A DNA stretch of 34,397 nucleotides from Aquificaceae bacterium (GTDB lineage: Bacteria > Aquificota > Aquificia > Aquificales > Aquificaceae), in the NCBI GenBank assembly GCA_015490155.1, contig WFYI01000106.1, forward strand, positions 1 through 34,397, given 5' to 3'. A program made the translations under genes and the position numbers. The notes under the pieces are model-generated. The model was given only the letters and a program-made list of their open reading frames with translations. It was not told the origin of the DNA and did no database searches. Positions 5,065 to 9,807 of the stretch are shown one piece after another; the first letter of the stretch is position 1; every line of letters starts with the position of its first letter.

Positions 5065-6990
5065 CTAAATTATAGCGGCTGAGTTTGTTTCTCTCTTGAG
5101 TATACCTTCAAGGTCTAATATAAGAACTACCTTTCCTTCACCCGTTATGGTTGCACCGGATATTCCTTGTATATCCCCAACTATCTTACTGAAAGGTTTC
5201 ACAACTATCTCTTCGTCTCCGTAAAGCTCCTCGACGGTGAACGCTGCTCTCTGCCCGCCTACCTGAGCCACGATGATGTACCCTATGCTGCCCTCTTCCA
5301 CTCCCAAGATGCTTCCCAATCTGAAAAGGGGTATGGTTTGCTCCCTTAAAAGTAGGACTTCCTTTCCGGAAAGGGTCTTTATCTCTGCATCTTCACCTTG
5401 AATTATCTCGAGGACAGAGTAAATAGGTATGGCATAGAACCTGTCCTTTATAGACACGAGCAGAGACCTTATTATGCCTATTGTGAGGGGGAAAGACATA
5501 AGTATCTTTGTCCCCTTGTTTTTCTCTGTTTCTATATCTATGGTTCCTCTGAAATTGGATACGGTGGTTATAACGACGTCCATCCCCACTCCGCGTCCGG
5601 AAACCTCCGAAACGTCTTCTCTCGTTGAAAATCCGGGATGGAAAATTAGGAAGAGGGTTTCCTTTTTACTCATTTTGTCAAGTCTTTCTCTCGAGACTAT
5701 ACCCTTCTCGAGAGCTTTTAGCTTTACCTTGTCTACATCTATACCTCTGCCGTCGTCAACGATTTCAACAAATATTCTGTCTCCCTGATAGTAAGCCTTG
5801 AGAAGTATCGTTCCCTTTCTGGGTTTTCCGAGCCTCTCCCTTTCCTCAGCCGGCTCTATACCGTGGTCTATGGCATTTCTTATCAGGTGTATCATAGGCT
5901 CTTCGAGCTTCTCTATGATGGTTTTGTCCATCTCAACATCTTCACCTTCGGTTACGAGTTCAACCTCCTTGCCGAGCATTTTCGATAGGTCTCTAACCAC
6001 GCGCGGGAACTTTTGGAATAGCCTTTTCACGGGTTGCATACGCGTTTTCATAACGGCGAGCTGAAGGTCACCGACTATTCTGTCTATGGAGGACAGTATC
6101 GTCTCAAATTCGTCCATGTCCTTTGATACGCATTCCTGGGAAATTTTCTGAAATCCTCTCACTAACCTGTTTCTTTCAAGGACAAGCTCCCCAACCAGGT
6201 TCATGAGAGCCTCTATTTTATCTACGTCTATCCTGAGTACTTTCTCCCCCGCTTGTTTTTCTTTTTTCTCAGGTTTTTCCGCTTTTTTATGCTCCTTTTG
6301 TTCTTTTGGCTGTTCTTCCTTAGCTTGAGCTTCCCCGCGTTTTTCCTGTTCCTCTTCCTCCTTGCTCATCTCTATCATCTTTATGTCGGCTTCAAGCTCC
6401 TTTTCTTTGTACTCTTGCTCGGATACCTCGCCCGTTGAGATTAACTTGTCAAGCTCGGATATTAGCTCGTCCGGTCTTTCGTCAGGTGGTAAGAGTATAA
6501 GCTCTTCAAGAACTTCCTCAATAGGCTTCCCTTTAAGATGAGAAAATCCGTACTCGTCTAAGAGCTTGTCAAGGCTGCTTACTTCGTCAGATGGAGCAGG
6601 TGTAGAGCCAGAAGCAAGGGAGCGTAACTTCTCCACAAGCTCCGTCGGAGTTTCAACCTCTTCTCCCTCCTCGTATTTGCTTATCGCTTCTCTGATAAAG
6701 TCTATCGCAGACAGTATGGCGTCGTTTATATCTGCGGAGAACCTCAGGCTCTTTTCCCTAAGCTTACCTAAGATATCCTCTGCTGCATGAGCCACCTCAA
6801 CTATAGCGTCAAGCCCGAGAAATCCTGCTCCACCCTTGAGGGTGTGCATAGCCCTGAAGGCGCTGTTGAGTATCTCCTCGTTCTCGGGGTCGTTTTCCAG
6901 CTCCAACAGGTCTTGTTCGAGCTTATCGAGGTTTTCCGATGCTTCTACGACAAACTCGTTAAAAATCTCCCTCATGTCGTCGTTAATCAT
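5065..6990 (-). CDS. cheA: Chemotaxis histidine kinase CheA (linker peptide instead of a clear P2 domain)
   Basis: Sensor kinase of 641 residues that phosphorylates CheY (and probably CheV). Domains: HPt at 1-110 with the phospho-His in RAMHTLKGGAGF (H49); a region at 125-245 without a recognisable P2 fold, containing SSLDKLLDEYGF (138-149) and then a low-complexity Glu/Lys linker (190-250); dimerisation helices at about 250-310; ATPase with N box HLIRNAIDHG (368-377), G1 DDGRGI (412-417) and G2 GRGVGMD (465-471); and a CheW-like P5 domain from about 505 to the end. The linker peptide matches the CheZ C-terminus and FliM N-terminus of the next operon, so it probably docks CheY. A GGGAG ribosome site lies before the ATG, which is three bases after cheV. 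Confidence 0.97.
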   Translation of the reverse strand: MINDDMREIFNEFVVEASENLDKLEQDLLELENDPENEEILNSAFRAMHTLKGGAGFLGLDAIVEVAHAAEDILGKLREKSLRFSADINDAILSAIDFIREAISKYEEGEEVETPTELVEKLRSLASGSTPAPSDEVSSLDKLLDEYGFSHLKGKPIEEVLEELILLPPDERPDELISELDKLISTGEVSEQEYKEKELEADIKMIEMSKEEEEQEKRGEAQAKEEQPKEQKEHKKAEKPEKKEKQAGEKVLRIDVDKIEALMNLVGELVLERNRLVRGFQKISQECVSKDMDEFETILSSIDRIVGDLQLAVMKTRMQPVKRLFQKFPRVVRDLSKMLGKEVELVTEGEDVEMDKTIIEKLEEPMIHLIRNAIDHGIEPAEERERLGKPRKGTILLKAYYQGDRIFVEIVDDGRGIDVDKVKLKALEKGIVSRERLDKMSKKETLFLIFHPGFSTREDVSEVSGRGVGMDVVITTVSNFRGTIDIETEKNKGTKILMSFPLTIGIIRSLLVSIKDRFYAIPIYSVLEIIQGEDAEIKTLSGKEVLLLREQTIPLFRLGSILGVEEGSIGYIIVAQVGGQRAAFTVEELYGDEEIVVKPFSKIVGDIQGISGATITGEGKVVLILDLEGILKRETNSAAII

Positions 6991-6993
6991 CGC

Positions 6994-7953
6994 CTACTCC
7001 CCCTTGGCTCTTTTCTTGACGGTTTCCTGAACGAGCTTCAACAGGTCTTTAGCGTCGAACTTAACTATGTAGGCGTCCGCATTAACCCTGTATGCCCTCT
7101 GTTTATTTGATTCATCACTCAGCGTGGAATTAACTATGACCGGCAGTCCCATAAGCCCTATTGACTCCTTTACCTTCTTAGTAAAGGTAAGTCCGTCCAT
7201 GTTGGGCATCTCTATGTCCGTTATAACGAGCTGTATGTAATCCGTTATAGGTTTCCCTTCAGCCTTTGCCCTGTCAAGGTACTTCGTGAGTATCTCGTAA
7301 GCCTCAAGCCCGTCCTCCGCAAGTATTACGTTGTGTCCCGCACTTCCGAGGATGTCCGAGATAATTTTTCTCGCAACCGGAGAGTCGTCTGCTACGAGTA
7401 TGGTGTAAGTTTCTCCCTGCTGGGAGTCCTTAGCCTCCGCTTCGTGGAAAATCTTAAGAAGTCCTATGTCGTGAAGTATACCCTCAAAGTCGAGAATTAT
7501 TAGCAGTCCGTCTTCCGTATCTACAACTCCTGTTATCCTGCCGTTAAGCTTTTGGTTCAGTGTCTCCGGAGGCTTTTTGATGTCCGCCCAGGAGATTCTC
7601 CTTATCCTTTTTGCATCATGAACTATAACGCTTACGTTCTCCCGTAAGAACTCGAGATGTAACAGGTACTTCTTTCTGGAGTCAGGTTCGTCTATCCCCA
7701 TCCACCTCGCAAGGCTAATAACTGGAACGAGTCTTTCTCTTATCTCCGTCATACCTTCAACTTCCGGCGGCATATTGGGAACTTTCGTTATCTTAGGTAG
7801 TATAAGAACCTCCCTAACCTTAGCCACGTTCACACCGAATATCCACTCGTAGATTCCGCTTTCCCTGTCCTCGTATATCCGGAAATCAACTATCTCAAGC
7901 TCGTTGGAACCCGTCTCCAATATATCCGGAAGTCCGTATTTTTCTCCGCTCAT
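6994..7953 (-). CDS. cheV: Chemotaxis coupler/response regulator CheV
   Basis: A 319-residue fusion of a CheW domain (about 20-165) with a receiver domain (about 183-315). Receiver residues are all present: acidic pair D189/D190, phospho-acceptor D246 in [12 protein letters not shown], Thr/Ser switch near NSTLS (275-279) and K298 in YIVKFD. CheV couples receptors to CheA, and its phosphorylation tunes that coupling, giving a form of adaptation without receptor methylation. This may matter here because no cheR, cheB or cheD is in the window. Its ATG overlaps the mini-receptor stop by four bases (ATGA). Confidence 0.95.
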
Positions 7954-8225
7954 TCCTTCCCCTCACCGGCTTCAACCGTGGAGTGCAGAGCCTCAATTCT
8001 ACCTTTTATACTCGTAGATAACTTAGCGGTGCTGTCCGCGAGCTTTCTGAACTCCGAGGCTACGACCGCAAAACCTTTACCGGCCTCCCCGACGCGAGCA
8101 GCCTCTATGGCCGCATTTAGGGCAAGGAGGTTAGACTGCTTGGCTATCTTAGTAAGGGATTCTGCCAGTTCTTCCAGCTCCTCCAGCTCCTTTTTAATCT
8201 TCTCAATGTCTAAGTTTTCCACCAT
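7950..8225 (-). CDS. Mini-chemoreceptor: signalling-tip hairpin only, 91 residues
   Basis: The protein consists almost wholly of the tip of a methyl-accepting chemotaxis protein hairpin. Residues 6-30 form a charged helix. Residues 31-58 hold the near-invariant tip ([19 protein letters not shown], then [14 protein letters not shown]), and residues 60-88 form the returning helix. There is no ligand domain, membrane segment, HAMP domain or methylation region. Each arm is about six heptads long, against roughly 18-22 in usual receptors. The start chosen is the ATG at 8225, which has GGAGG five bases upstream; a GTG at 8237 would add four residues but would bury that ribosome site inside the coding sequence. 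It leads the cheV-cheA-cheW operon. It should be able to bind CheA and CheW; any sensory input would have to come from a partner. Confidence 0.88.
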
Positions 8226-8271
8226 CTCCACCTCCACTCAATTCCTATTTTAAATTAAAATTTAAAGAATT
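8226..8271. promoter_or_regulatory. Divergent control region of the two chemotaxis operons
   Basis: Only 46 bases separate the mini-receptor ATG (minus) from the fliM ATG (plus). The middle is A/T-only over about 20 bases (8246-8265) and nearly palindromic. TAAAAT on the minus strand (8247-8252) could be a -10 box, and TAAAAT on the plus strand (8256-8261) another. I see no convincing -35 box and no sigma-28 flagellar motif. Confidence 0.4.
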
Positions 8272-9246
8272 ATGGAGCAGGATTTTTTATCCCAAGAAGA
8301 GGTTGACCTCCTGCTCAAAAGCTTGGGAAAGGAACAGGAAGAGGCGGAAGGCGGTGATGAAAGGGAGGACGTTAAGCCCTTTGACATAAACGAGCTTGAA
8401 AAGATATCCCCTCTTAGGTATGCGAGACTTGAGCAGATAATAAACAAGTGGACTGTTTACCTCTTCCCGGAGTTAAAGTCCGTTGTTATAAACCTCGAGA
8501 ACATATCTATGAAATCCCTATCCCATGAGAAGCTCTCTGATTTTATCCTTAAGATACCTCTTCCCTCTGCGATAGCCGTTTTGGAAATAGAACCCCTCGA
8601 GGGAAAGTTCTACCTGATAATAGACCCCAGGCTCCTTTACACCATAGTGAGCGTGGTTTTGGGAGGACCACCCAAGTCCTACAAGATAGAGGGCAAGAGT
8701 TTTACAAAGGTGGAGTACAGGATAATGAAGAGGGTTCTTACGAAGATGGTAGATACCCTCGATAGAGCGTGGAACGAGTTCATACCGGACAGCAGAATAA
8801 GGCTTGTGGACATAGACGATAACCCGCGTCACCTCATAACCGTGAGCAAACAGGAAATAATCCTTCTTACCACCATGGAGCTTGAGATAGAAACATTCAA
8901 AGGGCAGTTTTTCTTAGTCCTACCCATGAAAAACTTAGACCCTATAAAGGACACACTCAGAAACACGAGAACGGGTGAGGAAAACCTAAAAGATGTGGTG
9001 GTAGAAAACCTTATGAATACACCTGTTCTTATAGAAGCTCTCCTCGATAGATTTCAGATGAGTGTAAGAGACATACTGAACCTTAAAGAGGGAGATATAA
9101 TAAACACCGATAGGTACATAAGTTCTAAAATAAGCATAATAGCCGGGGGAGTTCCTTTGTTTGAAGGGACGCTCGGGACTTCGAGAGGTAAGAAGGCTGT
9201 TAGGATAGACATGCTTAAAGAAACTAAGGCTAAGGGGGATATGTGA
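8272..9246 (+). CDS. fliM: Flagellar motor switch protein FliM
   Basis: C-ring component of 324 residues that receives phospho-CheY and sets rotation direction. The N-terminal CheY-binding peptide FLSQEEVDLLLKSLG (5-19) is followed by an acidic linker (20-40), the middle domain (about 45-240, including VVLGGPP near 130) and the C-terminal FliN-like SpoA domain (about 245-315, with LKEGDII and VDVGE-like elements replaced by local variants). The ATG has no clear Shine-Dalgarno sequence. Other flagellar genes are not in the window, so the motor is encoded elsewhere. It heads a tight operon with cheZ, cheY, a receptor and a J-domain protein. Confidence 0.95.
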   Translation: MEQDFLSQEEVDLLLKSLGKEQEEAEGGDEREDVKPFDINELEKISPLRYARLEQIINKWTVYLFPELKSVVINLENISMKSLSHEKLSDFILKIPLPSAIAVLEIEPLEGKFYLIIDPRLLYTIVSVVLGGPPKSYKIEGKSFTKVEYRIMKRVLTKMVDTLDRAWNEFIPDSRIRLVDIDDNPRHLITVSKQEIILLTTMELEIETFKGQFFLVLPMKNLDPIKDTLRNTRTGEENLKDVVVENLMNTPVLIEALLDRFQMSVRDILNLKEGDIINTDRYISSKISIIAGGVPLFEGTLGTSRGKKAVRIDMLKETKAKGDM

Positions 9247-9249
9247 GCC

Positions 9250-9807
9250 ATGAAGGATTTTGAATCTCTTATAAAGGAGCTTCTCGAGAGCGTTAGAACC
9301 CTTGAGGAGACCTTAGAGAAGGCTAAGAAGCCGATAGAAACGAGCTCCCAAATCATACCTCAAACCACCGAGAATATCCGCGATGTCATGCAATTTCTCG
9401 AGGATACCTCCCATAACATAATGAACTACCTCGAGGAGATAAACACCAACTCGAAAGCAATTCAGGAGGATATAGATTTCCTCATGTCTCTGAACCCTAC
9501 GCAGAAAATAAAAGACAAGCTCGTTGATATGAAGAAGAGGAACGACGAGAACCTTAACATCTTGCTTCAGTTGTTCTCTATGATGTCCTTCCATGACTTG
9601 GCGGGACAGCAGCTTAAACTCGTTATATCCTCACTTGAGTCAATAAAGGAGAACCTTATAAACGTTATAGTAGCCAAAGTTGCGGAGGAGAAGAAGCTCG
9701 AGGACAAAGAGGTTGAAAAGCTCAAGGGTAAGGTATCGGAGCTTCTTACGCAAGACCGTGTATCTCAAGACGATGTTGATAAGCTTTTGGAGGAGTACGG
9801 ACTATAG
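9250..9807 (+). CDS. cheZ: CheY-P phosphatase CheZ
   Basis: Helical protein of 185 residues that removes phosphate from CheY. The catalytic motif is SFHDLAGQQLK with D116 and Q120, matching the family DLTGQ pattern (D143/Q147 in E. coli). Long flanking helices should form the four-helix bundle dimer. The C-terminal SQDDVDKLLEEYGL (172-185) matches the CheY-binding tail of known CheZ proteins and resembles both the FliM N-terminus and the CheA linker peptide. It starts three bases after fliM and is followed by cheY. CheZ is common in proteobacteria; its presence here fits the proteobacterial-like genes often seen in Aquificales. Confidence 0.9.
   Translation: MKDFESLIKELLESVRTLEETLEKAKKPIETSSQIIPQTTENIRDVMQFLEDTSHNIMNYLEEINTNSKAIQEDIDFLMSLNPTQKIKDKLVDMKKRNDENLNILLQLFSMMSFHDLAGQQLKLVISSLESIKENLINVIVAKVAEEKKLEDKEVEKLKGKVSELLTQDRVSQDDVDKLLEEYGL

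Follow-up and report, generated by a model that had tools for sequence, protein, structure and literature searches.

Chemotaxis and Motor Genes of the Window

The window, by which we mean the whole stretch of 34,397 nucleotides analysed, comes from a heat-loving bacterium of the Aquificota. Its minus strand carries cheW, cheA, cheV and the gene of a mini-MCP, and its plus strand fliM, cheZ, cheY and a gene for a soluble MCP-like protein. The genes and peptides that matter here are the following:

5065..6990, minus strand: cheA, 641 aa; P1 8-97, P3 250-316, P4 366-503, P5 510-633; without P2
8272..9246, plus strand: fliM, with MEQDFLSQEEVDLLLKSLG as its N-terminal start
8287..8328, plus strand: FliM residues 6-19, LSQEEVDLLLKSLG, the family's N-terminal CheY-binding peptide
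9250..9807, plus strand: cheZ, with SQDDVDKLLEEYGL as its C-terminal end
9763..9804, plus strand: CheZ residues 172-185, SQDDVDKLLEEYGL, the family's C-terminal CheY-binding helix
9822..10205, plus strand: cheY, 127 aa; Escherichia coli-type, with the face that binds FliM, CheZ and P2 conserved

The window CheA has the composition of a CheA histidine kinase, with a P1 Hpt domain bearing the phospho-histidine followed by P3, P4 and P5 (Hpt, H-kinase_dim, HATPase_c and CheW in Pfam), and H49, within MHTLKGG, is invariant across an alignment of 57 Aquificota CheAs. Its partner CheY is clearly of the E. coli type and aligns very closely with E. coli CheY, retaining K91, K92, Y106 and K119 (E. coli numbering), residues of the surface to which FliM, CheZ and P2 bind. 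All three peptides singled out in an earlier note on this DNA are present, at CheA residues 138-149 (SSLDKLLDEYGF), at the end of CheZ (SQDDVDKLLEEYGL) and at the start of FliM (MEQDFLSQEEVDLLLKSLG).

Several other features of these loci deserve mention in their own right. A 95-aa protein encoded at 7950-8237, with a GTG start and a 4-base overlap with cheV, consists of the MCP signalling tip alone, and such tip-only proteins, of about 85-120 aa, recur at many related loci. Elsewhere in Aquificota the N-termini of FliN, which adjoins FliM, repeat a [SD]QE[DE][LMI]AxxWEEAL-like motif two or three times in tandem (L064, L078, L079, L141). The genome of the window also encodes a second CheA of unrelated type (L084, G000:C91:22000-37000), with cheB and cheR nearby, in what is a separate chemosensory cluster; one TGA was reported inside its search match, yet the open frame runs to 761 aa.

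Absence of P2 and a Predicted Module in Its Place

No Pfam P2 was detected between P1 and P3 in the window CheA or in any of 57 Aquificota CheA N-terminal halves; as a control, the same scan detects P2 in 17 of 42 CheAs from other phyla. Nor was an alpha/beta fold found, the AlphaFold2 model of CheA residues 1-255 being helical throughout, with no strand. A hidden folded P2 in residues 125-190, the outcome on which the earlier note would have given up its proposal, is ruled out by this all-helical model together with the negative Pfam scan, and the view that this CheA has no recognisable P2 is borne out, for the window protein as for its 57 relatives. The region between P1 and P3 is instead made up as follows:

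6427..6582, minus strand: CheA residues 137-188, conserved, predicted three-helix module at the P2 position, absent from Pfam and NCBIfam
6544..6579, minus strand: CheA residues 138-149, SSLDKLLDEYGF, CheZ-like; helix 1 of the module and the following turn
6472..6510, minus strand: CheA residues 161-173, LEELILLPPDERP, near-invariant core of the module
6244..6426, minus strand: CheA residues 189-249, variable E/K-rich linker reaching P3, its C-terminal part with low pLDDT

The module, of about 52 residues, is contained in 57 of 57 aligned N-terminal halves, a count of homologous sequences and hence not of independent events, and every flagellar-type Aquificota CheA tested carries it. AlphaFold2, run on the alignment for residues 1-255, places helices at 134-146, 157-165 and 174-188, with 10-residue block means of pLDDT of 89-93 over residues 141-180; folded alone, the module again gives three helices (pTM 0.57). 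Its least variable segment, LEE[LI][IV]L[LM]PPxxRP (161-173), lies downstream of the CheZ-like peptide and had escaped the earlier note: across the 57 sequences no variation is seen at L161, L166, P169, R172 or P173, and almost none at E162, E163 and P168. The P2 domain (PF07194, the CheY-binding model of Pfam) occupies the same position between P1 and P3, and the role proposed for the module, that of keeping CheY near P1, would be shared with it; yet P2 is an alpha/beta domain of about 70-80 residues, whereas the module is shorter, all helical in the model, and without a sequence match to P2.

The module appears confined to Aquificota in the genomes searched. A profile built from it gave strong matches in 83 Aquificota genomes, one in each and nearly always within a frame of cheA length, and no credible match in the roughly 157 genomes searched from other phyla. 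When 84,980 species genomes were scanned with the core pattern, all 46 loci returned lay in Aquificota. Two further profile matches, each with an E of about 0.003 and located in an unrelated frame (295 and 316 aa), are at chance level over 293 genomes. The second CheA of the window's genome (G000:C91) does not figure among the matches. Searches of Pfam, NCBIfam, PDB sequences and Foldseek gave no credible known small domain family (best Foldseek E 2.1), a Foldseek row to the middle domains of Thermotoga maritima FliM-FliG (E 2.9, TM 0.36) not being meaningful. The module is a small, predicted helical domain previously unlisted in Pfam and NCBIfam.

Likeness of the CheA Segment to CheZ and FliM

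Against the CheZ 10-mer VDKLLEEYGL, the CheA segment LDKLLDEYGF scores 40 in BLOSUM62, with residue matches at L140/V, D141/D, L143/L, L144/L, Y147/Y, G148/G and F149/L. The best unrelated protein in a background of about 1,360 proteins (299,191 residues), in which the filter had left some CheAs, scores 31; all rows above it are CheAs, and none of 2,000 shuffled CheA linkers reaches 40. The resemblance of the two 10-mers is well beyond chance. Plain chance is thereby ruled out for the 10-mer core, but not for a 13-residue CheZ profile, which is equalled by 14% of background proteins and by 22 of 200 shuffles and fails to reach significance because CheA is devoid of the upstream SQ[DE][DE]. FliM gives a different outcome: 265 of 1,368 proteins match its VDLLLKSLG as well as CheA does, so that a FliM motif in the window CheA is rejected, the likeness being at chance level. 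The core of the docking peptides, phi-[DE]-x-L-L, is thus shared above chance between CheA and CheZ, but not between CheA and FliM. It follows that the single pattern which the earlier note had drawn through CheA, CheZ and FliM shrinks to the first two; the acidic residues that it placed after LL are absent from FliM itself, which has LLKSLG, and the [LI][ST]Q found upstream in both FliM and CheZ is missing from the CheA peptide.

The likeness to CheZ has its own bounds. Where the window CheA reads LDKLLDEYGF, E. coli CheZ has VDDLLDSLG, with F at its very end. The CheZ C-terminal helix (PF04344; E. coli CheZ 200-214 in PDB 1kmi) has in common with the segment the core phi-D-x-L-L-x-x-[YL]-G-[FL]; it is, however, a free C-terminus preceded by SQxx, whereas the CheA segment is internal, without SQxx, and is followed by two further helices. 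In addition, D and G are kept in CheZ C-termini (in all of 42 distinct ones, which were chosen by a pattern of that type) but are not conserved in the CheA segment. FliM N-termini, for their part, depart only very rarely from the LSQ[DE]E[IV][DN] frame, and with the FliM peptide (LSQEEIDALL) the window CheA shares only a loose phi-D-x-L-L. Among 48 parsed CheA N-terminal regions from other phyla, the pattern used found no CheZ-like motif. The linkers of two CheAs from other phyla (L198 and L200) share EIERLLxxRxEEDKKR; L198 has no Pfam P2, and the stretch is possibly another docking motif.

The 57 Aquificota N-terminal halves fall into two forms. The first comprises 28 CheAs, those of Aquificaceae together with some Hydrogenothermaceae-type genera, and its module starts with phi-[DES]-x-LL-x-x-[YF]-G-[FL]-x-H-L-x-G-K; in the second (29 CheAs) the module starts with [VIL]xxx[IL]KxLIxx[YF]PGK and has no GFSHL stretch. 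All 29 second-form CheAs lack the CheZ-like D141 and G148, and the strict D/G pattern is found in 16 of the 28 first-form CheAs, 12 being without it; a relative from the same genus has N at 141 (GLNRLLEKYGF), and residue 146, E in the window CheA, is basic (K or R) in 26 of the 28. Neither D and G nor the upstream [LI][ST]Q is a conserved property of these CheAs, and aligning their linkers, as the earlier note had suggested, placed the segment within a conserved module while showing that the D and G of the docking pattern are not kept. Common to both forms are only the hydrophobic positions 140, 143, 144 and 147, which, being the ones retained, probably pack the core of the module, helix 1 lying against the other two helices.

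FliM-like Peptides in Gammaproteobacterial CheAs

Closer matches to FliM occur elsewhere. We analysed 25 gammaproteobacterial CheAs plus that of Pseudomonas aeruginosa, whose annotation and repeats identify the class as Gammaproteobacteria. No Pfam P2 was found in 25 of 25. By pattern, 70 copies of a FliM-like peptide lie in the P1-P3 linkers of 26 CheAs of the class, nearly all parsed CheAs having it, mostly as two to four tandem copies per linker and up to six (L257-L285; L319:2501-4762). The repeat has the consensus D-E-I-[TS]-[DE]-[DE]-E-F-E-A-L-L-D-x-L-H-G, with the longer forms ITDDEFEALLDxLHGKG and [IL][TS]xxEFEALLDxLHGKG, and the four copies of P. aeruginosa CheA read ITDDEFEQLL, ISDAEFEALL, ISDDEFEALL and ISDDEFESLL. 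Pfam reports SHOCT in these CheAs, overlying a repeat in one member examined. In the same genomes FliM starts, nearly invariantly, with L[SN]QDEIDALLHG, and CheZ ends with QD[DE]VDDLLSSLGF. Run against other proteins (465,602 residues), the pattern recovers almost only FliM, CheZ and a few CheAs missed by the filter, and the likeness of the CheA repeats to FliM has strong statistical support; these repeats, unlike the window segment, match FliM closely. One CheA of the same class (L206) has three FliM-like peptides in its linker. One complete gammaproteobacterial genome (G326; L259, L301) has genes for CheZ and for a CheA carrying such peptides, but gave no FliM match.

By their sequences, the linker repeats are a candidate CheY-docking array, and they back the general idea of a shared motif better than the window does. 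Their presence in P2-less CheAs suggests that docking elements probably replace P2 elsewhere. A study of Pseudomonas putida assigns this region of CheA to a P2-like 'YB' domain (PMC11978298), and in the open-access papers searched we found no description of FliM-like peptides in CheA linkers.

Function of the Module

The module stands where E. coli CheA has P2. Since it replaces P2 in the flagellar-type CheAs of a whole phylum, a P2-like holding of CheY would be its simplest role, and we suggest that residues 137-188 form a putative three-helix P2 substitute, tethered between P1 and P3 by stretches modelled as flexible, that would keep CheY beside phosphorylated P1. To this reading as a whole, the tethering included, we assign a probability of roughly 0.45; its support lies in the conservation of the module in 57 CheAs, its position, its predicted strand-free fold, the absence of P2 from all 57, the match of the CheA and CheZ 10-mers, the retained CheY face and the FliM-like peptides in the linkers of P2-less gammaproteobacterial CheAs. 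In the Aquificaceae-type branch, helix 1 and the GF turn could have come to resemble CheZ by using the same CheY face, or the likeness may reflect convergence of short amphipathic helices. Against a P2 substitute counts that the second form, judged from its sequences, has the module without the CheZ-like D and G. Moreover, in the predicted fold helix 1 probably turns its hydrophobic face inwards, and CheZ-style binding of CheY would then call for an opening of the fold. Nor is a substitute strictly needed, since more than half of known CheAs manage without P2, according to a recent survey (Berry et al. 2023; PMC10782961).

It is possible, if on balance doubtful, that the module has a structural or regulatory role and does not bind CheY, positioning P1 or binding CheV, CheW, CheZ or CheB, its likeness to CheZ being that of any short amphipathic helix of the same spacing. 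Such a role is nearly as good an account as a P2 substitute because the most conserved surface, LEELILLPPDERP, is not the CheZ-like part; it would also agree with helix 1 being conserved across both forms at its hydrophobic positions alone, and with the full 13-residue CheZ profile, which is not significant and on which other helices score higher by chance, such as VEDVYELLEELGQ (Hpt domain end, second CheA). It sits less well with a 10-mer match that unrelated proteins do not reach in about 300,000 residues, and with a position that is exactly that of P2. In E. coli, kinase, motor and phosphatase are already pictured as competing for one CheY face, and the earlier note proposed such competition for the window. 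In that model CheA 138-149 would be an unfolded docking peptide within a flexible linker, equal to the CheZ C-terminus and the FliM N-terminus. The residue-by-residue match to CheZ and the tandem FliM-like peptides in P2-less gammaproteobacterial linkers speak for such a peptide; nonetheless, we judge it improbable, because AlphaFold2 puts the segment in helix 1 of the three-helix module and not in a flexible, exposed stretch, conservation of D and G fails even inside the branch, the upstream [LI][ST]Q is missing and the comparison with FliM is at chance level. What survives of that proposal is a CheZ-like segment at the place of P2; what does not is its nature as a free linker peptide.

These findings bear on how P2-less CheAs pass phosphate to CheY efficiently. 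The survey ascribes to such CheAs, which the window CheA resembles in having no P2, a long region without structure (PMC10782961) and, in the passages considered, reports neither the module nor docking peptides (Berry et al. 2023). We tentatively propose that P2 could be one of several interchangeable solutions for CheY docking, among them the FliM-like arrays of gammaproteobacteria and the three-helix module of Aquificota, CheZ-like in one branch, with kinase, motor and phosphatase recognising CheY by versions of one short motif. A phylum-wide module at the P2 position and the tandem peptides of Pseudomonas-type CheAs are concrete, testable candidates for such alternative docking; if the proposal is true, the modelling of phosphotransfer and of competition for CheY would change for many P2-less CheAs.
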